Assembly (NCBI GenBank): GCA_016839275.1
Contig: JAEOUM010000015.1
Coordinates: 1-39,219, forward strand
DNA from: Candidatus Thorarchaeota archaeon
GTDB lineage: Archaea > Asgardarchaeota > Thorarchaeia > Thorarchaeales > Thorarchaeaceae
Direction: 5' to 3'
Length of the DNA stretch: 39,219 bases
The notes beneath the pieces were generated by a model that had not been told where the DNA came from, ran no database searches, and saw only the letters and a list, made by a program, of their open reading frames with translations. Every line of letters begins with the position of its first letter. Positions within the stretch are counted from its first letter, which is position 1. A program made the translations under genes and the position numbers. Positions 1,702 to 13,529 of the stretch are shown one piece after another.

Positions 1702-2409
1702 CTACTTTCTTATCTCAGGTTGAGCCTCTTTTGCCTTCTCCTTAACTTTGGGAAGGTCAAGCATCTTCAACATGATTGTGTTATCCTCATTCATCCAGAT
1801 ATCAATGAAGGCTCTTGCATATAGAAACAACAGTGAAAAGAAGACACGTACAATCTCCTTTCGTGTGTTGTTCAATAGCACATCTGTGAATCTTACAATT
1901 TCTCCAACATTCATGAATCGTTTGAGGTCTGCATATACTTCCGCGATTGTTTCCTCAATATTTGCTTGGTCAATATCCATTGTGAAGGTCAAGGGGTCTG
2001 CCTTTCCTCGATACTTCTGCTTGACGGAAGCAGTTCTCACTCTCGGTTCCTTACTTAACACCTGATCCATCGCAATGAGTAGTTCTTCAATTGTAACACG
2101 TCTATTAGTGAGTCTAAATGGCGGTCTAATGAGAGGAATCTCGAGTTCCCGATCATCATCCCCCTCTTCAGGTGGAAGAATTCCAAGTTGAACAAGTTCT
2201 CTTGTCTTTCGCATGAATATTACAGAAGCTGAGTAAAGTGCATTTCCCGATATACGAAAATCAATGTCCCCCAGTCGTCTCATTTCATTTAGGAATCCTA
2301 CAACCAGTTTTCCTACATCCACATTCCATGGTTCTATCTTGTCCAACTGGAGAATGTCTGTCAGTAGAATGTATGGAGGCGTTGCCCAGAATGGAGAATC
2401 ATCATCCAT
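1702..2409 (-). CDS. scpA: Segregation and condensation protein ScpA (kleisin)
   Basis: ScpA is the kleisin that bridges the two SMC heads and carries ScpB. The protein (235 residues) has the N-terminal helical domain that binds the SMC neck, with PPYILLTDILQLDKIEPWNVDV near residue 10, then an acidic linker, and a C-terminal winged helix at about 165-220 (VGEIVRFTDVLLNN...VVRVFFSLLFLYARA type) that binds the SMC head cap. The ATG at 2409 overlaps the smc stop in a TGATG arrangement, pointing to translational coupling; a TTG one codon earlier is a less likely start. Co-transcription with smc and scpB is the usual arrangement and fits the spacing here. Confidence 0.9.
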   Translation of the reverse strand: MDDDSPFWATPPYILLTDILQLDKIEPWNVDVGKLVVGFLNEMRRLGDIDFRISGNALYSASVIFMRKTRELVQLGILPPEEGDDDRELEIPLIRPPFRLTNRRVTIEELLIAMDQVLSKEPRVRTASVKQKYRGKADPLTFTMDIDQANIEETIAEVYADLKRFMNVGEIVRFTDVLLNNTRKEIVRVFFSLLFLYARAFIDIWMNEDNTIMLKMLDLPKVKEKAKEAQPEIRK

Positions 2410-5400
2410 CAAGTTTCAGCTCCAACCTCCTCCAAGTCCACTGATACTATCCTTGATATTCCATCTTGATTGGACACTCCAACAAGAAGATCCGCTTTCC
2501 TAACTGTGGTGTCCCTCAACGATACCACAACAAATTGCGAAGATTTCGACATCTCTGAAATCAGAAGGGCTACATTGTGAGCGTTTACGTTATCTAGCGC
2601 TGCATCTATCTCATCAAACACATAGAAACTAGCTGGATTATACATCTGAATTGCAAAAATCAATGCAAGCCCTGTGAGTGTCTTTTCACCACCACTCATA
2701 GCATCCAGTGTCACAAGCTCTTTTCCTCGTGGTTTTGACCTTACCGTAATGCCACCCATCAGTGGGTGTTCTGGATTCTCGAGCATCAGATTCCCTTCGC
2801 CGCCTGGTGATAGTTTTGCAAAGACCTTTGCGAAGTTATCTGCAATTTCATTATAGACTGTGAGAAACTTCTGAGTTTTTTCTGCTTCAAGTTCCTCCAT
2901 GAATACTAGAATTTCCTTTCTTTCTTCCTCCAATTTGGTCTTTTTGTCCACAATCTCATCGTATTTTTCTCGTTCAGTATCATAGTCTGTAAGTGCTTTC
3001 AGGTTGACAGGTCCCATTGCCTCAAGTTCTCTCTCTATCTCCCTTATCTTCTCTTCGAACTCTTCTAGCTCGCGATAGGTGAGTTCTCGTTCATCCTTTC
3101 TTTCCTCAAGCGCGTTCTCTGCATCCGTGTGAGTGCCTAAGTCAGCAATGAATCCTACAATATCGTTCTCTAAACGATTTTGTTCGGTCTGTAACCTATA
3201 AACCGCCTTCTCGTTTGAAGTCTGAGCTTCTCGAATCTCTTCGTGTCTTAGTCTGTAATTCCTCAGAGTTTCCTTAAGTTCAAGTTGATACACTCTCTTG
3301 TCCTTAACAGCTTCATCTATTTGCTCACGCTTTTCTTTTAGTTTGACGAATTCGCTCTCTCTCTCTGCCAGTCCTAGCTCAAGTTTCTTGACCTCTTCTT
3401 CAAGACCTGGAAGTATTGAGTCTTGTGCTTGAATCTTCGCCTCCAGCTCAATCGCCTTTGGACCAAGTCGTTCATCTAGAGCCACCCTAAACGATGTGAT
3501 GTCACTTTGGAGTTTCTCACGTTGTTTCTGATATTGTTCCTGTACCTCTTTCAGGTCTCTAATGTCTTGATTGAGTTTTGCAGAATCAGATTTTGCGAGA
3601 TCTTCATTGCATTGATCCCGCTGTGCCATGACTCGTTCTCGTTGGACTGTGAGTTCATCATCGCGTTCTCGAAGGCTCTTTATCTGTGCTTCAAGCTCCC
3701 CTATTGTCAGGTTTGCTTTCTCAATCCTCTCCTTTAGAACCTTCGAGCGATTTTCTTGCTCCTCTAGACGTTCTTCAAACTTTTCTAGTTCTATTCTTGC
3801 ACGATAGTTAGTTTTTGATAGTTCTTGGAGTTCTCTCTCTAGAGCTCTTCTCTCATTTCTTAGGGTGCTCTGCTTACTTCTTAGATCTTTTAGAATATCT
3901 TCAAGTCCCTGAAGTCTTTTGGCTATCTCTGGACTAGTATCTTCTACTTGGAGGGAAAGCCCCTTACCGCTTCTCTGATAGTACCCACCAGTCATCAGAC
4001 CTGACCGCTCGACAAGGTCGCCTTCAAGTGTGACTGAACGTTGACCACGGAATCCAAGACGTTTAGCAGTATCAAAATCCTTTGTCACTATGGTGTCAGA
4101 GAACACAAACTCAAAAGCGGGTTTCATTTTCGCTTCAAACTTCACTAGATTTAGCGCAAAGTCTACAACCCCTTCATCGTTTGGTAGCTTTCGAGGTGGT
4201 TGAGCCTTAATCTTATCAAGAGGAATAAAGGACGCGCGACCAATTCTTTCGCGTTTCAACACATCAACGCAGGCTGTTGCTGCATCCTCGTTTTCCACAA
4301 CTACATATGAGAGTCTATTTCCCCCAGCTATCTCCATTGCAACAGCATAGTCTGGGTCGATAGTACCAAGTTCAGCAACAGTGCCATGAATCCCATTAAT
4401 CTCTCCAGCATCTCTCAGCTCCAAAACTCTCGCAACAGCACGTTGTCTCTTCAGGAATGTATCTTCTGCTTCCTTGAGGGCATCTTGACGGGCTTGAACT
4501 TTGATTAGTTCCTCTCTTGTTGTGGCTACAAGATGAGTGCTTTCATCCACCTCGGCATCAATCGTTGCAAGGCGTTCTGTGATCTCTTCGTATTCCTTCT
4601 TTTTTGACTCTTCGAGTTTTTCATTCTTATCTATTAATTCTCGCCTTTCAGGAATAACCTGGTTCAACTCTGTTAGATCGCCTTCTGCCTTTTCAAGCCC
4701 CTCTGTTGAGTCTCTGACCTCTTCATAAGCAAGTCCAAGTTCTCTATTATCGGACTTTATAGACGATCGTATCTCTGACACTCCTTCGTCGAGCGCGCGT
4801 AGCTGGTTATTTAGGTCCTGTAAGCGTAGAGTGGTTTCGTAATAGCTAGTCTGTTCCTTTTCTGACATCTCTTCTAGACGGATGATTTGAGCTGCTGTGC
4901 TTGAAATCTCTTTTTCAAGAGTATCAAGCTGCGCTGCTTTTTCTTTCATCAGACGCTCATTATCACTCATATCATTCTGTGTGGATTCTAACTCGTCAAG
5001 AACACTCATTCTCTCGTTACTAGCTCTATCGAATTCAAATTGCGCCCGTTCCAAATCCGAGCGAACATGGCTTACTGCTGCTGAAACTATGCCATACTGC
5101 TCAGATATCTTTGCAGAGTCGCCCCCTGTTATCTGATCGATATCGTGGTCTATGGTATCAATCTCTGTTTCTGTTGACGTGATTCCTGTTTCAACTTCAA
5201 CAAGTTCTTTTTCAAGACTACTTGCCTCTTCAGCCCTCTGAGTCAGGCTCTCATTAATGGCATCTATTCTTAGCCTGCCCTTAATAATGCTCCACGCAAG
5301 GATGTCAATTCTGTGCTTCTGAATCTGACCGTTCAAACCTTTATGGCGAAGTGCATCGGATCTCTCTTCCTCTAGTTTCTCGAGTTGACGTCGACGTTCC

Positions 5401-5999
5401 TGCAATTGGGCGTCAACCTTTCCTAGATTACTTTCACTTTCAGCTAGTTTCTTGAGGGCGCGTTCTTTCTGTTCATCATATGCAGAGATTCCAGCAATCT
5501 CTTCAATCATCTTTCGTCGCTCAGTGGGGCTTACTTTCACCATCTGGGCAATCTCTCCCTGAAGTACAAGGTTGTACCCATTTGGATCCACCCCAATGGC
5601 GCCAAGCACATCAATAACAGCTCCTCTAGTAACGGTCTTATTGTTGATACGACAGACCGACTTTCCTGTATCATCCAGTTCTCTCTCTATCACCACCTTG
5701 TCAGCATCAACTTGCAACCTTCTATCTGTATTATTAAAATGAAGTTCAACAGTTGCCTCCTTTGCTTTTGGCGGCATGTTCGGCTTTGGTGGAGAATAGA
5801 GCAAATCTGAGAAGACTGTTGCACGTAAGGTCTTTGCGCTAAGCTGACCTAGGACGAATAAAATGGCATCAATGACATTTGACTTGCCTGAGCCGTTCGG
5901 ACCAACGATACATGTGAAGCCTGGATTGAATTTGATGGTGACTGATTCTCGGCCAAATGATTTGAAGCCCTTGCATACTAGCTTCTCGATATGTACCAA
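2409..5999 (-). CDS. smc: Chromosome segregation ATPase SMC
   Basis: SMC is the long coiled-coil ATPase core of condensin. The protein is about 1196 residues, the normal length. It has the N-terminal head with Walker A GPNGSGKS at about residues 33-40, a first long coiled coil, a hinge at roughly 530-680 (GEINGIHGTVAELG through LMTGGYYQ), a second coiled coil, and the C-terminal head with the ABC signature LDAMSGGEKT and Walker B FYVFDEIDAALD. I prefer the TTG at 5999, which gives MVHIEKLVCKGFKSFG, matching how SMC proteins normally start, with GGGTG six bases before it; another TTG seven codons upstream (6020) is possible. It heads the leftward operon with scpA and scpB. Inverted repeats at 6076-6122 lie in its upstream region. 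Confidence 0.95.
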   Translation of the reverse strand: MVHIEKLVCKGFKSFGRESVTIKFNPGFTCIVGPNGSGKSNVIDAILFVLGQLSAKTLRATVFSDLLYSPPKPNMPPKAKEATVELHFNNTDRRLQVDADKVVIERELDDTGKSVCRINNKTVTRGAVIDVLGAIGVDPNGYNLVLQGEIAQMVKVSPTERRKMIEEIAGISAYDEQKERALKKLAESESNLGKVDAQLQERRRQLEKLEEERSDALRHKGLNGQIQKHRIDILAWSIIKGRLRIDAINESLTQRAEEASSLEKELVEVETGITSTETEIDTIDHDIDQITGGDSAKISEQYGIVSAAVSHVRSDLERAQFEFDRASNERMSVLDELESTQNDMSDNERLMKEKAAQLDTLEKEISSTAAQIIRLEEMSEKEQTSYYETTLRLQDLNNQLRALDEGVSEIRSSIKSDNRELGLAYEEVRDSTEGLEKAEGDLTELNQVIPERRELIDKNEKLEESKKKEYEEITERLATIDAEVDESTHLVATTREELIKVQARQDALKEAEDTFLKRQRAVARVLELRDAGEINGIHGTVAELGTIDPDYAVAMEIAGGNRLSYVVVENEDAATACVDVLKRERIGRASFIPLDKIKAQPPRKLPNDEGVVDFALNLVKFEAKMKPAFEFVFSDTIVTKDFDTAKRLGFRGQRSVTLEGDLVERSGLMTGGYYQRSGKGLSLQVEDTSPEIAKRLQGLEDILKDLRSKQSTLRNERRALERELQELSKTNYRARIELEKFEERLEEQENRSKVLKERIEKANLTIGELEAQIKSLRERDDELTVQRERVMAQRDQCNEDLAKSDSAKLNQDIRDLKEVQEQYQKQREKLQSDITSFRVALDERLGPKAIELEAKIQAQDSILPGLEEEVKKLELGLAERESEFVKLKEKREQIDEAVKDKRVYQLELKETLRNYRLRHEEIREAQTSNEKAVYRLQTEQNRLENDIVGFIADLGTHTDAENALEERKDERELTYRELEEFEEKIREIERELEAMGPVNLKALTDYDTEREKYDEIVDKKTKLEEERKEILVFMEELEAEKTQKFLTVYNEIADNFAKVFAKLSPGGEGNLMLENPEHPLMGGITVRSKPRGKELVTLDAMSGGEKTLTGLALIFAIQMYNPASFYVFDEIDAALDNVNAHNVALLISEMSKSSQFVVVSLRDTTVRKADLLVGVSNQDGISRIVSVDLEEVGAET

Positions 6000-6075
6000 G
6001 TCTCGCACCCTTCCCGGCAAGTTCGTTTTTTTGGCATGTTGGCTTGTGTGTTATTCCGATGTTACACAGGCCTAA

Positions 6076-6186: not shown

Positions 6187-6558
6187 CTACTTAGCACCTA
6201 GAATTGAGAGTAAAGAACGACGAAGAGCCATCCGTAGTAGTCCCATTGACTCTCGAGCGCCTTCTCCAGCTACTGCAGCCATTACTATCTTCACATCACC
6301 CAAGATTATTACAAATCCATGATCTGAGGCAATGCTCACTTCCTTGAGACCTCCTTTATCAAGACCCGCTGCCAGCTGAGAAGAGTTGGCTGCTATCTTT
6401 ACTGCGAGATCTGCAACGTCAGAATGCTTGATGCCTCCTGTTATTGTATGACCAAAGAGTACCTTTCCTTTTGCATCGCAGATGATTATACCCTGAAGGT
6501 CTGCATTACTCGCCATGGTCTCCGCAACAATCTCTTCGATCTTCGCTTGATTCACCAT
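6187..6558 (-). CDS. Roadblock/LC7 domain protein 1
   Basis: Roadblock/LC7 proteins are small alpha-beta dimerisation modules that regulate or scaffold Ras-superfamily GTPases (bacterial MglB, eukaryotic Ragulator and dynein light chain). This 123-residue protein shows the family pattern: an N-terminal helix (IEEIVAETMASNADLQG), the strand turn IIICDAKGKVLFG, a long helix with DVADLAVKIAANSSQLAAGL, the strand EVSIASDHGFVIILGDVKIVMAAV, and a final helix with GLLRMALRRSLLSIL. It is divergent from the Sec23/24-like gene across a 184-base shared upstream region. AAGGAGG at 6570-6576 is its ribosome binding site. The partner GTPase cannot be told from sequence; the nearest is at 10456. Confidence 0.85.
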   Translation of the reverse strand: MVNQAKIEEIVAETMASNADLQGIIICDAKGKVLFGHTITGGIKHSDVADLAVKIAANSSQLAAGLDKGGLKEVSIASDHGFVIILGDVKIVMAAVAGEGARESMGLLRMALRRSLLSILGAK

Positions 6559-6569
6559 CTATGTATTAT

Positions 6570-6624
6570 CCTCCTTGGAGGTCTCGAATGACTAGTTGGG
6601 TCTTGAGAGCTGAAGTCTATATAT
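6570..6624 (-). promoter_or_regulatory. Promoter and ribosome binding site of roadblock 1
   Basis: On the minus strand a TATA-like GATATATAG (core 6618-6624) lies about 60 bases before the ATG at 6558, which fits a start of transcription near 6593. The AAGGAGG binding site is one half of the perfect palindrome CCTCC-AA-GGAGG (6570-6581), so the leader RNA could fold back on its own ribosome binding site; that role is inference. Confidence 0.45.
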
Positions 6625-6690
6625 CTTATGCGTTGCTCTCTAATGCATCGGATATTAGAGCCACAATCATAAGGAAAGTCGTCGATTGAC

Positions 6691-6713
6691 TTAAAACCCC
6701 TCACGTGAAGGGT
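6691..6713 (+). promoter_or_regulatory. TATA-like element and palindromic operator of the Sec23/24-like gene
   Basis: TTAAAA at 6691-6696 is a plausible TATA element. It runs straight into an 18-base palindrome, ACCCcTCACGTGAaGGGT (6696-6713), with one mismatched pair. Transcription starting about 25 bases past the TATA element would begin just after the palindrome, so a bound protein there would block it. The ribosome binding site GGAGG follows at 6728-6732. Confidence 0.45.
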
Positions 6714-6742
6714 GGCTGAATTATTTTGGAGGCGAATATATC

Positions 6743-8371
6743 ATGCCTATGTTACGAACTAGCTCAGAGGCTTTTCCAGCGTCGAAAGATGTTCTGAGTG
6801 ATATTCCATATGTCTTACGTGTAGAGTTTAGCCACCTTACACATGAGACCACCAAGATTGTAGGTAAACCTATAGCTTGCCACAAGTGTAATGGTTTCCT
6901 TCTCAGTGTAGACCAGATTCAGGATGACCCAAAGGTTGGCAAGCATTTTGTTTGCCCATTCTGTGGGACACTGAATGTCATCGAGGGCGAAATTGTCGTT
7001 GCTGGAGATGATACAGATTTTGTTGTAGAACCACCAAAAATCAAGACTGATTCCGACACAGGTACAGTTTCAGCAGGTGGGAGGTCTTTTCTCGCGCTCA
7101 TTGATGTGTCTGGCTCGATGAGCGGAGCCAATCTTGCAGCAGTTAAGCGTAGTTTGAATACATCGATTGACAGCCTTGCCTCAAATGCCCCGGACACAAT
7201 GTTTGGTCTGATTGAATTTGAGAGTAGTGTAATTGCCAGGAATTTGGAAAATGGTGAACCCGTTCAGCTACCACAGTCATCATTTGCCAATCTAGATGCT
7301 ATTATGGAGTCAACTAAGAAACTCCTTGATAAAATCAAGCTTGTTAATATTGGAAAGAACGCGAAAAAGCTAAAAGGGCATGTTCAAGCCCTTCGAGATC
7401 AGGGTGGTACAGCTCTCGGTCCTGCGGTCGCAATGGCATATGTTGTTGCGAAACATCGAGATGTTGGACGAGTAGTACTCCTGACTGATGGTCTCGCCAA
7501 TGAAGGAATTGGCGCCCTTGAGGGCTACCAAGTCACCCCTGCAAACAAGTACTACGAAGATTTAGGAAAGATGTTCTTAGGGATTGGAGCATCTGTTGAT
7601 GTCGTTGGTATTGCATCGGGTGCGGGTATGGAACTAAAGACGCTAGGCTTGCTACCGGAGGCGACTGGAGGGCAGATGTACTATGTCACACCAAATGAAC
7701 TAGACCGAAGCATCTCTGAACTTGCTGGTGCATCAATGCTAGGTCGTGATGTTGAGGTCCGTCTTGTGACACCTCCTAGTATAACAATCAAAGATGCGTC
7801 TGGCGTGTCACGAGCGGTTGTTGACACCTTGAAAAAGAAGAGCGAGAGCAAGATTGGTGTTGTGGGCGCAGATAATGAGCTCTACTTCGAAGTGGCACCC
7901 AACAGGGAACTCAAAGAATCTGAGGTACCCATTCAAGTTCAAGTAACTTACACTGATGAAGAGGGTGCTCGTAGGATCCGTGCGGTTACGACTATGCTCA
8001 AGGTGTCAAAGAAGGAAGATGAAATCATGGCCACTCTCGATCCGACTGTAGGCGCCACTTTTGTGACCCAAAAAGCTGGTGAAGAGTCCTTCAGTGGTGA
8101 GCGTGAGAAAGGTCGAGCGAGAATTGCATCCTTTAGGTCTGCAATGAAACGGAAAGCTGGAACAGCTCCAAAGTCCGTCCAGGCAATGCTTCAAAAGGCT
8201 GATGATGCTCTTAATGTTGAAGATAAGGAAATTCAACGACAGGAGGAGATGCTAAAGGCTCAACCTGCATCAGCTCCTTCAGGTGTAGCTGATGAAGCCT
8301 TTACTGAGAACTTAGCTCAGATGAAACGGAGTTCAAAGACGCTTTTCAAGAAAGATGTGGATGAGGAATAA
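6743..8371 (+). CDS. Sec23/Sec24-like protein (zinc finger, vWA trunk, beta-sandwich)
   Basis: The 542-residue protein follows the domain order of the COPII inner-coat proteins Sec23/Sec24. A zinc finger uses Cys46, Cys49, Cys71 and Cys74 (ACHKC and VCPFCGTLN). A vWA-type trunk follows at about 115-335, with DVSGS (121-125), GGTAL (221-225) and LLTDG (246-250); TGGQMYYVTPNELDRS recalls the TGGYM region of Sec23. A beta-sandwich at about 340-425 ends in RRIRAVTTMLKV, like the KRIRVTTIAR of Sec23. The last 110 residues are helical and charged, and the gelsolin-like domain of Sec23/24 is absent. Unlike in Sec23, the metal-ion site D-x-S-x-S, Thr223 and Asp249 look intact, so it may bind a divalent metal. 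No signal peptide or membrane segment is seen, so it is probably cytosolic. It may be a membrane-curvature or scaffold protein; a general vWA protein is the alternative. Sec23/24-domain proteins have been reported from Thorarchaeota. Confidence 0.75.
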   Translation: MPMLRTSSEAFPASKDVLSDIPYVLRVEFSHLTHETTKIVGKPIACHKCNGFLLSVDQIQDDPKVGKHFVCPFCGTLNVIEGEIVVAGDDTDFVVEPPKIKTDSDTGTVSAGGRSFLALIDVSGSMSGANLAAVKRSLNTSIDSLASNAPDTMFGLIEFESSVIARNLENGEPVQLPQSSFANLDAIMESTKKLLDKIKLVNIGKNAKKLKGHVQALRDQGGTALGPAVAMAYVVAKHRDVGRVVLLTDGLANEGIGALEGYQVTPANKYYEDLGKMFLGIGASVDVVGIASGAGMELKTLGLLPEATGGQMYYVTPNELDRSISELAGASMLGRDVEVRLVTPPSITIKDASGVSRAVVDTLKKKSESKIGVVGADNELYFEVAPNRELKESEVPIQVQVTYTDEEGARRIRAVTTMLKVSKKEDEIMATLDPTVGATFVTQKAGEESFSGEREKGRARIASFRSAMKRKAGTAPKSVQAMLQKADDALNVEDKEIQRQEEMLKAQPASAPSGVADEAFTENLAQMKRSSKTLFKKDVDEE

Positions 8372-8400
8372 TCTTCTCTAAGTCATTATTAGTCTAAAAA

Positions 8401-8437
8401 GCCGTGCTTGTTTTTAGCACGGCGCTCGTTTCTTTTT
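8401..8437 (+). terminator. Hairpin plus T-rich tract after the Sec23/24-like gene
   Basis: GCCGTGC (8401-8407) and GCACGGC (8417-8423) form a perfect 7-pair stem with a U-rich 9-base loop, followed by a T-rich stretch TTTCTTTTTA ending at 8437. It sits 30 bases after the stop codon and is the most terminator-like structure in the window. Confidence 0.6.
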
Positions 8438-8461
8438 ATGTAACACACCCTTGTATAAGCT

Positions 8462-8494
8462 AAAAATGCGCATTTTTCAACGTTGCACGGCAAC
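8462..8494. promoter_or_regulatory. Two adjacent palindromes upstream of roadblock 2
   Basis: AAAAATGCGCATTTTT (8462-8477) is a perfect 16-base palindrome. Four bases on, GTTGC-acg-GCAAC (8482-8494) is a second perfect one. A TATA-like CTAAAATA near 8510 would place them just upstream of the core promoter for the gene at 8575, the position of an activator or repressor site. Confidence 0.4.
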
Positions 8495-8574
8495 ATATCT
8501 CCACAAGTCTAAAATAGTCAACTGCGGCGTAGTTGTTGTTAGTGCACAGTCGAAAGTAGCGAGGATTCCGTACG

Positions 8575-8874
8575 GTGATTACCCAAGAAAAACTCCAATC
8601 CATCCTGTCAAACCTTAAAGCGCAGGAAGGTGTTCGTGGAGTTGTGGTGACCACCATGGAGGGTCTTCCACTAAGTAGTGATTTGGACCCCGAAACAACC
8701 GAGAGTGTCGCTGCAATCATAACCTCTCTCGTGGGTAAAGCCCTCGATGCTGTGAGGGAACTTCGAGAGGGTTCACTGTCATTCCTGACCCTTGATACAA
8801 ATAAGGGTCAGATCAACATCGCACCGGATGTGAGCGAGGGCCTAATATTGGTCGTCCTCAAAAATAATGATTGA
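8575..8874 (+). CDS. Roadblock/LC7 domain protein 2 (short)
   Basis: A 99-residue minimal roadblock module: helix KLQSILSNLKAQEGVRG, strand VVVTTMEGLPLSSDL, helix with TESVAAIITSLVGKALDAV, then strands ending LILVVLKNND with no C-terminal helix. The GLPL turn after the first strand is typical of MglB-like roadblocks. The GTG start has GAGG at 8561-8564. Its TGA is followed immediately by the roadblock 3 leader, so the two are almost certainly one transcript and may form a heterodimer (inference). Confidence 0.8.
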   Translation: MITQEKLQSILSNLKAQEGVRGVVVTTMEGLPLSSDLDPETTESVAAIITSLVGKALDAVRELREGSLSFLTLDTNKGQINIAPDVSEGLILVVLKNND

Positions 8875-8889
8875 ATGGAGTGTACTGGA

Positions 8890-9354
8890 ATGAGTGATCC
8901 AAAAGCCTTCGATAAGATACTGACCGAGATTATCCGTCAGGATAAGGGCATCAAGAAGGTCATCCTTGTAGATAAGACAGGACTTACAATTGCCAATGTT
9001 TCAAAGCTGAGCTATTACCCCGTTGATGTTGATTCAATCGGAGCCATTGCCAGTGCGGTCTTCTGTGCAAGTGAGGAGCAGGGCAAGAACCTGCAGATTG
9101 GGGAGCTAGAGATAGTCACTTCTGAATTTTCAGAGGGCAAAATCTTCGCCTCGGCCTGTGGGAAAGGTGTACTCTGCGTTGTATCAGAAGCAGAGGTAAA
9201 CATAGGTCTCATCCGGCTTGTGATGAAGAAGCAGGGTGTCCAACTTGCAGATGAGCTTGATAAGTTCTTGGCTGTAGAGCCATTATCTCCAAAGGATGCA
9301 GAACTTGACGAGGAAGACCTGAAGTCAGCTCTGGCAGAACTTGAACGAGTGTAG
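8890..9354 (+). CDS. Roadblock/LC7 domain protein 3 (with C-terminal extension)
   Basis: A 154-residue protein with a roadblock core: helix AFDKILTEIIRQDKGIKK, strand VILVDKTGLTIANVS, helix VDSIGAIASAVFCASEEQ, strands LEIVTSEFSEGKIFASACG and VLCVVSEAEVNIGLIRLVMKK. It carries an acidic tail of about 40 residues (LDEEDLKSALAELERV) not present in the other three roadblocks here, perhaps a binding segment. I chose the ATG at 8890 because GGAG lies at 8877-8880; a frame-compatible ATG at 8875 directly follows the preceding stop and lacks a site. It is coupled to roadblock 2 and probably ends at the hairpin 9381-9412. Confidence 0.8.
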   Translation: MSDPKAFDKILTEIIRQDKGIKKVILVDKTGLTIANVSKLSYYPVDVDSIGAIASAVFCASEEQGKNLQIGELEIVTSEFSEGKIFASACGKGVLCVVSEAEVNIGLIRLVMKKQGVQLADELDKFLAVEPLSPKDAELDEEDLKSALAELERV

Positions 9355-9380
9355 AACATGTCTGCATGGTGTCCCTAGCA

Positions 9381-9412
9381 GTTTCTTGCATTGTCATCTA
9401 CAATCAAGAAAC
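9381..9412. terminator. Long inverted repeat between convergent genes
   Basis: GTTTCTTG...CAAGAAAC forms the outer stem and ATTGT-catct-ACAAT the inner stem; together 13 pairs with a single bulged C and a 5-base loop. It lies between the 3' ends of rightward roadblock 3 and a leftward membrane-protein gene. It can fold on either strand, so it could end or protect both transcripts. No T run follows, so strict factor-independent termination is unproven. Confidence 0.5.
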
Positions 9413-9441
9413 GCCGCTGAATAATTAGCTGTTCGACTCTG

Positions 9442-10056
9442 TCAGATAATTTCTACGATGGGTATTCTGCAAAGATTCACATGCAGCATGATTTTGTGTC
9501 TAGCTCTTTTGACTATCCTGAGTATTCCATAGTGAATCTGTTCGTTCAAACACCACCACGGTATCTCTTTCTCGATCCACATTAGTGGCTCCTTGGGAGG
9601 CGGCATAATCATCAGAAACGCACCAGCGACTAACGCAAGAAGAGGTATCGGGATAGGGGGGAGTAAATTAACACCCGCCCCGAAGAGGTTCAGAAGGTAC
9701 ATGGAAACTGAAAACTGCAGCTCCGCCATAATACCAAGTCGGATTGTCTTCGGCGTCGTTGTAAAACCCCTGTAGCGTCTGTAGATTTGGTATATGAACG
9801 CCAACCGTAAGAAGGAAAGTGGCAGAAACATATGGAAAAACCAAAAACCGCCCATAGGCACGCTTGGGGACCATAATGGCATTATCCATGTCATCGCAAA
9901 AACATAGACATTAATTCTAGTAGGATAATAACCAACGTCGTAACCAAAGGAAACGCTGAGTGCCTGCGGTGTAAACAATGCGACTAGGCTGAGAATTGTG
10001 CCGACAATTGCTAGCCTTAAGGTCCCCTGTTCGACTGAGGGCTTGAAGTTTCTCAT
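9442..10056 (-). CDS. Multi-pass membrane protein, paralogue family member 1
   Basis: A 204-residue protein with about four or five hydrophobic segments (roughly 14-36, 45-65, 68-88, 108-128, 130-150) and a charged C-terminal tail. I do not recognise the family. Its middle and end closely resemble the proteins at 23744 and 24655: an RY(R)G-x-TxxKTI-type loop, a helix ending in AEL, the motif PIPIPLLALVAGAFLMIM, then PPPKEPLMWIEKE. It sits inside the roadblock/GTPase island but points left. The start follows from an ATG giving MRNFKPSVEQG; a TATA-like sequence and palindrome lie 55-75 bases upstream. Confidence 0.75.
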   Translation of the reverse strand: MRNFKPSVEQGTLRLAIVGTILSLVALFTPQALSVSFGYDVGYYPTRINVYVFAMTWIMPLWSPSVPMGGFWFFHMFLPLSFLRLAFIYQIYRRYRGFTTTPKTIRLGIMAELQFSVSMYLLNLFGAGVNLLPPIPIPLLALVAGAFLMIMPPPKEPLMWIEKEIPWWCLNEQIHYGILRIVKRARHKIMLHVNLCRIPIVEII

Positions 10057-10108
10057 CGGATTCTCATACTCTTTTAATCAGGCATGATTCATCTACTTTG
10101 GATATTGA

Positions 10109-10131
10109 GTGCTCATAAGCACATATACTTA
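10109..10131 (-). promoter_or_regulatory. TATA-like element with adjacent palindrome
   Basis: On the minus strand AAGTATATG (10123-10131) resembles a TATA box for the membrane-protein gene starting at 10056. Directly downstream of it lies the perfect palindrome GTGCT-cata-AGCAC (10109-10122), where a repressor would block transcription. Confidence 0.35.
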
Positions 10132-10178
10132 TTTTCGTACCTAGAATACAGCAACTCTGGTGTTAATCACGCGATTCA

Positions 10179-10304
10179 GTGAAGATCTACATCAAGGCAA
10201 GGGAGTTACACAGGATGATGAAGGGAGTCCCGAAGGACTATGCCAGGCGAGGGATTGAACTGATTACAAGGAAGATACGAGAGATTCAGATTTCACTACA
10301 GTAA
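10179..10304 (+). CDS. Possible small basic protein, 41 residues
   Basis: A GTG-started frame of 41 codons reads VKIYIKARELHRMMKGVPKD and continues with ARRGIELITRKIREIQ to a TAA at 10304. The composition is protein-like (basic, amphipathic, alternating Ile with Arg/Lys) and no ATG begins the frame, only an internal MM. No convincing ribosome binding site precedes it. It lies in the 399-base stretch between the membrane gene and the GTPase gene, which otherwise holds only promoter-like sequence. It may be a real small gene, a remnant, or chance. Confidence 0.25.
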   Translation: MKIYIKARELHRMMKGVPKDYARRGIELITRKIREIQISLQ

Positions 10305-10402
10305 AGTCTATTTAATGGGGCTCAGAAGTAGCAGTTCAGACGCGAAGTGCTTATTACATAGTCTAAAAAGAGAAACAATACTAGCAATCCAATATAGTGA
10401 TT

Positions 10403-10410
10403 GATATAAA
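10403..10410 (+). promoter_or_regulatory. TATA box of the MglA-like GTPase gene
   Basis: GATATAAA lies 46 bases before the ATG at 10456, giving a likely transcription start near 10433 and a short leader. The AAGGAG at 10448-10453 is only two bases from the ATG, an unusually tight spacing. Confidence 0.4.
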
Positions 10411-10455
10411 TGCCAACGAAATGGCGCCTCTCAGGAATAATAAAACAAAGGAGCG

Positions 10456-11028
10456 ATGTTCAAAGTGCGCAAGGATGATAAAGGTAGAATTCATCTGAAG
10501 TTGGTCTTCTATGGTCCATCGCTTGGTGGAAAGACCACAGCGCTACGTTGGCTCTATGGAAAGGTGGAAGGGCTCCAAAAGGGCGAGTTTACAGCCATAG
10601 AGGATGAGACAAATCGCACTCTGTTTTTTGACTACGTTCCCATGTCCGCGGGGGGGCGAGTCTTGTTTGATGTTTTCACAGTGGCCGGACAAAAACGTCA
10701 CCGCCACCAGAGAAAGGTGGTTCTACAGGGCACTGATGGAATACTCTTCGTGGCTGACTCGTCTCCAGATCAACGCGATGAGAACACAGAGAGTTTCGAA
10801 GAGTTGAAGCTGTTTCTGGGCGACGCTCTTGGGCGTGAGATACCCATAGTGGTCATGCTCAACAAGAGAGATCTGCCCAATAGAATGTCGCGTGAAGAGA
10901 TGCTCGACTTACTCGGTCTTGGAGGTAATGTTCCCATTTATGAAACAATTGCAGTACAGGGTGTAGGAGTTAAAAGGGCGTTTCAAGCAATAGCGCGAGA
11001 GGTCATACTCAAAAGGATGTACAAATGA
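10456..11028 (+). CDS. MglA-like Ras-superfamily small GTPase
   Basis: The 190-residue protein is a single small G domain. The P-loop is GPSLGGKTT (20-28). ETNRTLFFDYVP (51-62) matches the switch I region of the MglA family. The G3 motif is TVAGQ (75-79), where the usual Asp of DxxGQ is Thr, as in MglA (TVPGQ). G4 is NKRD (136-139), and ETIAVQGVGV near the end stands for G5. MglA is the bacterial polarity switch controlled by the roadblock protein MglB, and a roadblock gene starts only 17 bases after this stop, so the pair may act as switch and regulator. The basic C-terminus ILKRMYK has no prenylation motif; membrane contact would need a partner. An Arf/Sar1-like role beside the Sec23/24-like protein is possible but sequence places it nearer MglA than Sar1. 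Confidence 0.85.
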   Translation: MFKVRKDDKGRIHLKLVFYGPSLGGKTTALRWLYGKVEGLQKGEFTAIEDETNRTLFFDYVPMSAGGRVLFDVFTVAGQKRHRHQRKVVLQGTDGILFVADSSPDQRDENTESFEELKLFLGDALGREIPIVVMLNKRDLPNRMSREEMLDLLGLGGNVPIYETIAVQGVGVKRAFQAIAREVILKRMYK

Positions 11029-11045
11029 AATACAGGTGAAACAAG

Positions 11046-11417
11046 ATGGGAGAGTCTCGTGAAAATACACTCGAAGGAGTTCTAAACGAACTACAGGGAA
11101 GTATTCCTGAGATTGAAGCATGCGCCATTGTGAGTGTTGAAGGACTCCCAATAGTTTCAGCTCTTCCAACAGACGTAGATGAGGCAAAAGTCGCTGCCAT
11201 GACCGCGGCTATGTTAACCCTTGGTGAGAAAGCCTCCATAGAACTTGGAAAGGGCAATCTTGAGCAGGTCAACATCAAGGGCGTCGATGGCTGGTTGCTC
11301 GTGATACAGGCTGGGATGAACGCATGTCTAACTGTTTCAACTACCGCCAATGCAAAACTCGGGCTCATATTTCTAGATATGAAGAGAGCTGCTGAAAAGA
11401 TTGCTCAGATGATTTAG
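11046..11417 (+). CDS. Roadblock/LC7 domain protein 4
   Basis: A 123-residue roadblock protein: helix LEGVLNELQGSIPEIEA, strand CAIVSVEGLPIVSALP, helix DEAKVAAMTAAMLTLGEKAS, strands NLEQVNIKGVDGWLLVIQAG and ACLTVSTTANAKLG, final helix LIFLDMKRAAEKIAQMI. The GLPIVSALP turn is the classic MglB-like motif. The ATG at 11046 is preceded by AGGTGA. It begins 17 bases after the GTPase stop, so the two genes are probably co-transcribed, and by analogy with MglA-MglB it is the best candidate in the window for the GTPase's regulator. Confidence 0.85.
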   Translation: MGESRENTLEGVLNELQGSIPEIEACAIVSVEGLPIVSALPTDVDEAKVAAMTAAMLTLGEKASIELGKGNLEQVNIKGVDGWLLVIQAGMNACLTVSTTANAKLGLIFLDMKRAAEKIAQMI

Positions 11418-11491: not shown

Positions 11492-12259
11492 TTGAACTTA
11501 GCTGGCCCTGTCTATAGACTGTACGAATATTTCTTGTATCGACAGTTAGACAAGAATCTAGCACCCAAACACGTTGGAATAATACTTGATGGTAACCGAA
11601 GATATGCTAAGAAGCATGGAATGGAAGTCCCATGGTTTGGCCATCAAAAGGGAGCCGCCAAAGTGTTGGAGGTGCTTCGTATTCTCTGGGAGGCAAATAT
11701 CAAAGTATGTACAATATACGCTTTCTCCATTGAGAATTTCCAACGAAGTAAGAATGAGGTCAATGAGATAATGGCCTTAGCCAAGGAAAAATTCAGTGAG
11801 GTTGTTGGGAATCCTGATGTTCATAAACACAAGGTCCGAATAAGTGCAATTGGTCGAGTAGATCTTCTACCCAAAGACGTTCAGAATGCAATTCATGCGG
11901 CTGAAGAAGAAACCAAGGAATATAGTGACCATATTCTCAATATAGCAATCGGGTACTCTGGAAGAGCAGAGCTTGTAGATGCTGTACGTGCTATTGGGGA
12001 AAAGATTGAGAATGGTGAGATGGCTGCAGCTGATGTCACTGAAGATGTGATTGAGGACAACCTCTACACGAGTGGTGTACCGGATCCTGATCTTATCATT
12101 AGAACCTCAGGCGAGGAGCGACTTTCTGGTTTCCTACTCTGGCAATCTGCATACTCCGAGTTATATTTTGCACAGATATACTGGCCTGCAGTTAGAAAGA
12201 TAGACATTTGGCGAGCCCTCCGTTCATATGGCACGCGCGCTCGTAGATATGGAAAATGA
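11492..12259 (+). CDS. uppS: cis-Prenyltransferase (polyprenyl diphosphate synthase, UppS type)
   Basis: This enzyme adds isopentenyl diphosphate units in cis to make the long polyprenyl (dolichyl) phosphate lipid carrier used for glycosylation. The 255-residue protein shows all family motifs: HVGIILDGNRRYAKK (27-41) with catalytic Asp33, GHQKGA (50-55), YAFSIENFQRS with the EV that follows, and RTSGEERLSGFLLWQSAYSE near residue 208. TTG at 11492 is the only possible start between an upstream in-frame stop (11447) and motif I. It follows roadblock 4 in the same direction with a 74-base gap. The product probably supports N-glycosylation of surface proteins such as the one at 19795. Confidence 0.95.
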   Translation: MNLAGPVYRLYEYFLYRQLDKNLAPKHVGIILDGNRRYAKKHGMEVPWFGHQKGAAKVLEVLRILWEANIKVCTIYAFSIENFQRSKNEVNEIMALAKEKFSEVVGNPDVHKHKVRISAIGRVDLLPKDVQNAIHAAEEETKEYSDHILNIAIGYSGRAELVDAVRAIGEKIENGEMAAADVTEDVIEDNLYTSGVPDPDLIIRTSGEERLSGFLLWQSAYSELYFAQIYWPAVRKIDIWRALRSYGTRARRYGK

Positions 12260-12332: not shown

Positions 12333-13529
12333 TTGGCAAGAACCCCAGTTGATCTGTATCGAGGTCTTGTTAAAGCTCGCCTTGATGACAGTATAGAATC
12401 ACAGATAACATCGGTCGTTGCCAGATTTACTGATTGCGTTTTTGCAGGTGAGAAACTATCAATTCACTTGACGAGATTTCTCAGGCTTACTACTCGATTA
12501 AATGCATATATCAACTCGAAAGACAATGTGGATCAATCTGATGTCACCCTTGCTGTTGACCTGCTGGACTATCTCACATCTACATCAAAGTGGTGGACGG
12601 TAACTCGACAGGATCCCGGCCTCGTTCTGAGACCTCCCTCTCGAGATGCACGTGGATTTATCAAATCGATCGCAGATCTCCATATGGGCGGAAACACACT
12701 CCAAAGGATTTCTGGTGCAACTGAAAAACTATCCCGGTTTCTTGAAGAACATGAGATTGGCAATCGAGAAGAGATGGAAGAACTCTGCAATAGTATGTTA
12801 TCTACCTGGGCTCTCATTAGTGCTTTTGCATGTCGAAGTCAAGGCAGAAACACCACAACCGAAGAGGATTTTGAAACTGCTTACGATGTAATCCGTATTC
12901 TTCTCTTCTATGTAGATCCTATTGATTATAAAGCATTGACTGCTGTCCGCAAGTTGGGGACTCATTCAGTTCTCCCTCTTGCTGCAGGAGTAGCCTTTTC
13001 CCCAGGCTTCGAGAAGAAGCTAAATGCATCGGTTGCCGCTAATCTTGAGAAAACTCATGGAGATTATCTTGCGGGGCTGGCTATTGCCACTTCAGGCGCC
13101 TCTCGTTCAATTCTCACAAACTCCCTGAGATTGCTTGGGCAACTTCAGGCAGTAAAACAGGAGCTTGATCGACTAGAAGAAGATCACTATGAGTCTGTAA
13201 TTCTTGGTTCTATGGATTTAATCGAGAAAGCTGGAATATCTTCTGATTTTCTTCAGGAGGAATCTTCAGCTGTTGCTTTGTTTAAGGGTCTCAAACCTGC
13301 TGAGGGGGTCGATGAACGAATTCAACTACTCGTTAGAAGATTAGAGAGCCTTATTGTCGATTCGACTGGGAATAAGGACTTTTTACTTCAATATGCTCGA
13401 TTAGTTCCGCGTATGGTGGCCTTACTCCTCCTTCTGGCAAGCAAGACAAAGGAGTCTCCGTCAGCCCCTCTTGCGGATGCTGATGTGAAACGAGGCCTGA
13501 TTCTACTCTACGCTCTGATTAGTGGCTAG
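12333..13529 (+). CDS. Unrecognised helical protein with three similar helix-D-helix segments
   Basis: I do not recognise this 398-residue protein. It appears all alpha-helical and lacks membrane segments. Three segments share one pattern: a hydrophobic helix, a loop of about ten residues, then x-x-D(V/F)-x-x-A(or G)-x-x-(L/I)(L/I). They are SKDNVDQSDVTLAVDLLDYL (about 62-81), TTEEDFETAYDVIRILLFYV (about 175-194) and PLADADVKRGLILLYALI at the C-terminus. The same pattern occurs in the lid helices of MCM/AAA+ proteins and in histone-fold proteins, but no nucleotide-binding motif is present, so it could be an adaptor or a derived DNA-replication factor; this is speculative. The start is TTG with GGAG 11 bases upstream. 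It ends one base before the convergent acyl-CoA synthetase beta gene. Confidence 0.8.
   Translation: MARTPVDLYRGLVKARLDDSIESQITSVVARFTDCVFAGEKLSIHLTRFLRLTTRLNAYINSKDNVDQSDVTLAVDLLDYLTSTSKWWTVTRQDPGLVLRPPSRDARGFIKSIADLHMGGNTLQRISGATEKLSRFLEEHEIGNREEMEELCNSMLSTWALISAFACRSQGRNTTTEEDFETAYDVIRILLFYVDPIDYKALTAVRKLGTHSVLPLAAGVAFSPGFEKKLNASVAANLEKTHGDYLAGLAIATSGASRSILTNSLRLLGQLQAVKQELDRLEEDHYESVILGSMDLIEKAGISSDFLQEESSAVALFKGLKPAEGVDERIQLLVRRLESLIVDSTGNKDFLLQYARLVPRMVALLLLLASKTKESPSAPLADADVKRGLILLYALISG

Follow-up and report, generated by a model that had tools for sequence, protein, structure and literature searches.

Asgard archaea stand closest to eukaryotes and encode numerous small GTPases and roadblock proteins, and a gene module of theirs, one MglA-type small GTPase with up to four roadblock proteins, is real and ancient. 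We read it, with a probability of roughly 0.55, as an ancient MglA/MglB-type GTPase switch that is served by several specialised roadblock regulators. Three findings lead naturally to a roadblock-regulated switch: the neighbourhood is conserved well beyond Thorarchaeota, the GTPase is of the Group 1 MglA type, and one of the roadblocks, RB3, is MglB-like.

A roadblock-GTPase locus in Thorarchaeota

The window, i.e., the whole 39,219-nt stretch of DNA analysed here, comes from a Thorarchaeota (Asgard) metagenome-assembled genome (G000) of 2.58 Mb that is 84% complete. The original prediction for this DNA named six proteins, four roadblocks, an MglA-like GTPase and a Sec23/24-like protein, and all six are present at the positions given below, their families being backed by Pfam or profile matches. 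Its "membrane gene" between the proposed partners did not hold up: the ORF at 9442-10056 is unconserved, belongs to no Pfam or NCBIfam family and has no relative in the other loci read. The features of the locus are as follows.

2409..6020, minus strand: smc, conserved left neighbour of RB1
6187..6558, minus strand: RB1, roadblock protein, divergent gene beside smc (profile match to the solved roadblock 9jq8)
6743..8371, plus strand: Sec23/24-like protein with Zn finger, vWA trunk, beta-sandwich and C-terminal helical bundle, no gelsolin domain (Pfam, profile, model)
8575..8874, plus strand: RB2, short LC7-type roadblock without C-terminal helix (profile matches to 7F8F and dynein light chain roadblock)
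8875..9354, plus strand: RB3, MglB-like roadblock carrying a conserved C-terminal helix of the EELKAALSELEKV type after a linker (MglB matches, tail alignment)
9442..10056, minus strand: ORF with membrane segments, inserted in the RB3-GTPase gap, unconserved and outside the module
10456..11028, plus strand: MglA-type small GTPase, G2 Arg54, G3 TVAGQ (Pfam, PDB match, profile, alignment)
11046..11417, plus strand: RB4, roadblock protein, a median of 12 nt downstream of the GTPase (profile matches)
11492..12259, plus strand: UppS-type cis-prenyltransferase, conserved right neighbour of RB4 (Pfam Prenyltransf, 1.4e-76)

Three of the ten Pfam roadblock matches in the G000 genome fall within this cluster, which together with the conservation of the cluster across Asgard families indicates that the clustering goes beyond chance. 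The gap between RB3 and the GTPase (9355-10455 in the window, and its counterparts in relatives) receives unrelated DNA in many Thorarchaeota and ranges from 111 nt to 3.9 kb. Further downstream, positions 12333-13529 encode a fast-evolving protein of 398 aa (56% median identity) that has no family and was seen in Thorarchaeota loci only.

The module is conserved across Asgard families

Relatives of the GTPase were fetched as 49 loci, the search extended over 228 Asgard genomes, and some 75 neighbourhoods, mostly non-Thorarchaeota, were read from whole genomes. Thorarchaeota show the order smc, RB1 (divergent), Sec24-like gene, RB2, RB3, GTPase, RB4, uppS, as part of a block of some 12 functionally unrelated genes. 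Outside Thorarchaeota, RB2-RB3-GTPase-RB4 is intact in seven families (f2, f3, f4, f12, f13, f14 and f27), mostly with a divergent RB1 on the left and often with uppS on the right, and this core survives in families whose surroundings differ completely. Reduced forms occur in f5-f10, f26, f28 and f29, e.g., RB2-GTPase in f5-f8, or RB3-GTPase with RB4 nearby in f9. RB1 is divergent to RB2, or in Thorarchaeota to the Sec24-like gene, in f1, f3, f4, f12, f14, f26, f27, f28 and f29. An Odinarchaeota locus (L178, genome G175) carries RB1 and a contiguous RB2-RB3-RB4 with no GTPase in between.

At the E-value used, the GTPase was found in 204 of the 228 genomes, a count that includes paralogs. RB3 is present in 198 of them (44 of the 45 of high quality) and RB4 in 215 (all 45 of high quality). 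The uppS gene adjoins RB4 or lies near it in many families. In four loci (L122, L149, L193 and L194) RB4 is still beside or near uppS though separated from the GTPase; this linkage suggests a tie between RB4 and polyprenyl lipid synthesis.

Conservation and spacing set the core genes apart from their neighbours. Within Thorarchaeota, median protein identity to the window is 96.8% for the GTPase, 91.8% for RB3, 90.2% for RB4 and 85.4% for RB2, compared with 81.9% for ACS, 77.4% for UppS, 74.0% for RB1, 71.8% for the Sec24-like protein and 68.1% for Smc. The GTPase ranges from 91 to 99%, above the 83 to 97% of EF-1A in the same family. Third codon positions of the GTPase gene agree at only 44%, indicating very strong purifying selection on the protein; recent horizontal transfer or exchange as the source of the high identity was ruled out on the same grounds. 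Spacers measure 0-26 nt between RB2 and RB3 and a median of 12 nt between the GTPase and RB4, whereas a median of 178 nt separates the Sec24-like gene from RB2, leaving room for a promoter of RB2's own.

The GTPase is of the MglA type

The window GTPase is assigned to Arf/Ras by Pfam, which detects no roadblock domain of its own, and its best PDB match is MglA (1.3e-38; 1.6e-47 with the family profile). An Arg in G2 together with TVPGQ in G3 is described for Group 1 MglA proteins, and an insertion between G1 and G2 for bacterial MglA (PMC4316618). In our 42-row alignment Arg54 of G2 is nearly invariant and G3 reads TVAGQ, with Thr75, Gly78 and Gln79 invariant and the Val nearly so; Ala replaces Pro in nearly all rows, and TVPGQ is found in f22 and f25. 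The stretch from G1 to G2 aligns gap-free to M. xanthus MglA, insertion included, in a comparison made with bacterial MglA. Association with an MglB-type roadblock is seen at the level of the gene neighbourhood only. When the predicted GTPase domain was compared with known structures, MglA ranked first by a small margin and the top four matches were all MglB-bound MglA. Judged by its residues, the GTPase bears nearly all Group 1 MglA hallmarks, and it keeps the Group 1 catalytic residues in cis.

In the GTPase tree the module GTPase stands apart from a second MglA-like subfamily of Loki- and Odin-type genomes, and f27 has both. The tree does not resolve the deep order, its row for MglA has a long branch, and vertical descent and transfer from bacteria fit it alike. 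One GTPase copy (L040:4682-5245) has Leu in place of the catalytic Gln (TVAGL), unlike the other module GTPases in the alignment, which have TVAGQ; it is a single metagenome sequence and possibly an error. The G000 genome also encodes a second MglA-like GTPase (C174:4745-5287) that is 50% identical and lies in a frame of about 290 aa with an extension, and similar paralogs occur in other Thorarchaeota.

Four distinct roadblock proteins

The Robl_LC7 model of Pfam matches RB2 (9e-17), RB3 (1.6e-9) and RB4 (3e-16). RB1 alone is sub-threshold (18.3 bits), and its family profile matches the solved roadblock 9jq8 at 2.6e-23. The RB2 profile finds the Odinarchaeota roadblock 7F8F (Odin-RBLC7) at 2.9e-39 and the eukaryotic dynein light chain roadblock at 8e-23, and RB2 of the Odin locus L178 encodes a protein identical to 7F8F. 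7F8F crystallised as a homodimer that lacks a C-terminal helix and has space for a partner helix (PMC10933270). The RB4 profile matches 7F8M (Thor-RB; 1e-31), 9jue (1e-30), CvnB5 (3e-17) and MglB (1e-6).

RB3 is, from its sequence, the best MglB candidate of the module. Its family profile matches MglB at 2e-6, and RB3 matches the NCBIfam MglB model over its whole length (22.2 bits, E 1.2e-4); the cut-off of that model is 200 bits, and we therefore call RB3 MglB-like rather than MglB. At the positions of the MglB GAP residues, RB3 has Thr for Asn37 and Lys or Arg at Arg98 in all but one row. RB3 also has a conserved CGKG motif, with K97 in window numbering. Beyond the domain, the tail alignment shows a linker followed by a conserved helix-like segment. 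RB2, RB3, GTPase and RB4 share one frame in L050, which we modelled read through with stops as Gly. This gave confident single domains at a pTM of 0.42, too low for any interface to be claimed, and a C-terminal helix of RB3 was predicted at residues 306-316 of the model with low confidence (about 50 pLDDT). The RB3 C-terminal motif was rejected as a marker for the module GTPase: it is retained in Odin and f15-f17, where the GTPase is of the other subfamily, and altered in Loki-type lineages.

RB3 also matches MAPKK1_Int/LAMTOR3 (1.7e-7; in Pfam 31.5 bits against a cut-off of 25) and LAMTOR2, and RB2 matches Pfam LAMTOR5 (28.7 bits against a cut-off of 27). The LAMTOR5 and MAPKK1_Int matches are not decisive because both are weaker than those to Robl_LC7, and the likeness of RB3 to LAMTOR2/3 is about as weak as that to MglB.

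The Sec23/24-like protein is a neighbour in Thorarchaeota

The Sec23/24-like protein contains Zn finger, trunk, beta-sandwich and helical domain in the COPII order (Pfam: trunk 3.6e-11, beta-sandwich 2.6e-6, Zn finger 0.003). By sequence it is nearer to Sec24 (family profile 3.5e-18) than to Sec23, and its predicted structure (pLDDT 88, pTM 0.89) is equally close to both (TMq 0.73). The gelsolin domain is absent from its 542 residues, the chain stopping after the helical bundle. A C-terminal basic-x-Ser motif (MKRSSKxLF and variants; window 8300-8371 and loci L158-L163) is kept in other Asgard families and is, by inference from the sequence, a candidate phosphorylation (kinase) or peptide-binding site.

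Eukaryotic Sar1 recruits Sec23/24, and the original prediction had suggested a possible system in which roadblock dimers connect the GTPase to the Sec23/24-like protein as a coat-like membrane effector. The predicted fold and the position of the gene between RB1 and RB2 in nearly all Thorarchaeota loci speak for this. Its distribution points the other way: the gene occurs in only 80 of the 228 genomes, over 100 GTPase-bearing genomes lack it, and it is present in Loki-type genomes that have the other GTPase subfamily. It adjoins the module in Thorarchaeota only. Elsewhere RB1 directly adjoins RB2, and the Sec24-like gene, unlinked in every other family read, lies on other contigs without module genes. 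Its neighbours there include no roadblock or GTPase shared among the loci, and the loci of f14 have neighbours in common only through relatedness. Even in Thorarchaeota the adjacency is no tighter than that of unrelated neighbours in the same block, and the protein evolves like an ordinary neighbour (72% against 97% for the GTPase).

Two Thorarchaeota genomes keep the module without an adjacent Sec24-like gene. In L052 (G184) it has moved to another contig. In L033 (G222, 96% complete) about the last 33 codons remain between RB1 and RB2, and no second copy was found in the genome; we take the stub for a natural deletion, although a misassembly is not wholly excluded. The coat link was therefore discarded on distribution, the 178-nt spacing, and this loss and relocation, and as an account of the locus we consider it very unlikely. 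Conservation of the neighbourhood, the check that went with the original prediction, held for the GTPase-roadblock part, in seven other families, and failed for the Sec24-like part, which counts against the coat; likewise, synteny, the MglA type of the GTPase and the MglB-like RB3 bear out a roadblock-GTPase module and leave the coat aside. The Sec23/24-like protein is judged a Thorarchaeota-specific neighbour outside the module core, and it is possibly an ArnB-like phospho-regulated scaffold.

Alternative readings of the module

Of the alternatives, the most plausible, if still unlikely, is that the roadblocks mainly form a Ragulator- or LC7-like scaffold which positions the GTPase or other cargo and has no MglB-type GAP or GEF activity. 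The dynein light chain roadblock as a close relative of RB2, the MAPKK1_Int/LAMTOR3 and LAMTOR2 matches of RB3, and the groove for a partner helix that Odin RB2 presents would all fit a scaffold, as would the RB2-RB3-RB4 of Odin, kept without a GTPase beside it. Against this stand the GTPase itself, which is an MglA rather than a Rag and lacks the Rag-type roadblock domain, its retained Arg/Gln arrangement, which is targeted by indirect GAPs such as MglB, and the match of RB3 to the MglB equivalog model over its whole length. Less likely than any other reading is that the genes are adjacent by inherited order alone and have no joint function. The Thorarchaeota block, with its unrelated genes in kept order, would allow for this; the persistence of RB2-RB3-GTPase-RB4 amid wholly different surroundings and with very short spacers, and the fact that no other genes of the block are as conserved as those of the core, argue against it.

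A proposed roadblock-regulated MglA-type switch

For the preferred reading, an MglA/MglB-type switch with several roadblock regulators, we infer contacts between the GTPase and the roadblocks of the module. RB3 would take the MglB role, reorienting the switch loops of the GTPase and triggering hydrolysis, and is the main GAP/GEF candidate. The two protomers of M. xanthus MglB divide the work: one promotes nucleotide exchange through its Ct-helix, and most of the GAP surface belongs to the other (PMC6785124, PMC11016934). The tethered C-terminal helix of RB3 may act on the GTPase, like the MglB Ct-helix, or on RB2. RB2, of LC7 type and with its groove left open by the missing helix, could pair with RB3 or accept the RB3 helix, which would create a built-in asymmetric platform. 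A tailless RB2 and a tailed RB3 encoded 0-26 nt apart in Thorarchaeota suggest a pair that is asymmetric by design; the heterodimer is putative, since Odin RB2 crystallised as a homodimer. RB4 and RB1 may form further dimers that position the switch or carry its output. The roadblocks may also have other partners, since Odin keeps RB2-RB3-RB4 without the GTPase and since Loki and Odin carry a different MglA-like subfamily. The output is probably housekeeping cell organisation (polarity, envelope growth or division), a proposal that draws only on how universal and conserved the module is and on its neighbours UppS and SMC.

Asgard MglA-like GTPases, roadblock structures and Sec23/24 homologs are already known individually. 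No description of the RB-GTPase module was found in the literature searched, a search thin in subscription journals. The module looks like a core cell-organising switch of Asgard archaea, and its conserved gene order points to one GTPase with up to four roadblock partners. Its RB2 has already been crystallised from Odin (7F8F), and the module is of a size that lends itself to direct biochemistry; the tempting claim of an archaeal GTPase-coat system is removed as unsupported. Regulation of the GTPase by RB3 and RB2, if it occurs, would make the module an ancestral case open to study, placed between MglA/MglB of bacteria and the Ragulator, TRAPP and dynein roadblock assemblies of eukaryotes. A bolder version has LC7-type RB2 and MglB-type RB3 as the two halves of a built-in asymmetric regulator, acting on an MglA-type switch whose conservation exceeds that of EF-1A; RB2 would be the archaeal counterpart of dynein roadblock, and this subunit of dynein would have its origin in a GTPase polarity module. 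That version strikes us as doubtful, a shade more so than the scaffold.

Comparison with known systems

The Sec23/24-like protein shares with COPII Sec23/Sec24 the ordered Zn finger, vWA trunk, beta-sandwich and helical domains and the TMq of 0.73. Unlike them, it lacks the gelsolin domain, is encoded by a single gene and, outside Thorarchaeota, is not linked to the GTPase. ArnA-ArnB of Sulfolobus is a phosphorylation-dependent regulator that shares the Sec23/24 core motif; ArnB comprises vWA, beta-sandwich and C-terminal helical bundle, as in the Asgard protein, and the Zn finger is found on its partner ArnA (PMC12852372). The Asgard match to this system is weaker (TMq about 0.48) than that to Sec23/24, and here the Zn finger is in the same chain.

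Like Ragulator/LAMTOR with the Rag GTPases, the module surrounds a GTPase with several different roadblocks, and RB3 is weakly LAMTOR2/3-like, whereas the Asgard GTPase is MglA-like and without a roadblock domain of its own. Actinobacterial conservons (CvnA-D) likewise combine a small GTPase and a roadblock in an operon, and the CvnB5 match of RB4 is in line with this likeness; in contrast to conservons, the module has several roadblocks and neither a histidine kinase nor a CvnC gene. Among solved Asgard structures, 7F8F is the module's RB2 in Odinarchaeota, and 7F8M and MK-D1 Roadblock3 (9jue) are relatives of RB4. They were studied as isolated structures, and in the sections consulted the paper (PMC10933270) does not describe the gene module.

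The closest parallels are with MglA/MglB of Myxococcus and Thermus. The Asgard module differs from this pair in that four distinct roadblock paralogs take the place of a single MglB and Ala that of Pro in G3, and in being archaeal and near-universal in one phylum. It shares a Group 1-like GTPase with the G2 Arg and TV-x-GQ, clustered roadblock and GTPase genes, and a roadblock, RB3, that resembles MglB down to the tethered C-terminal helix.
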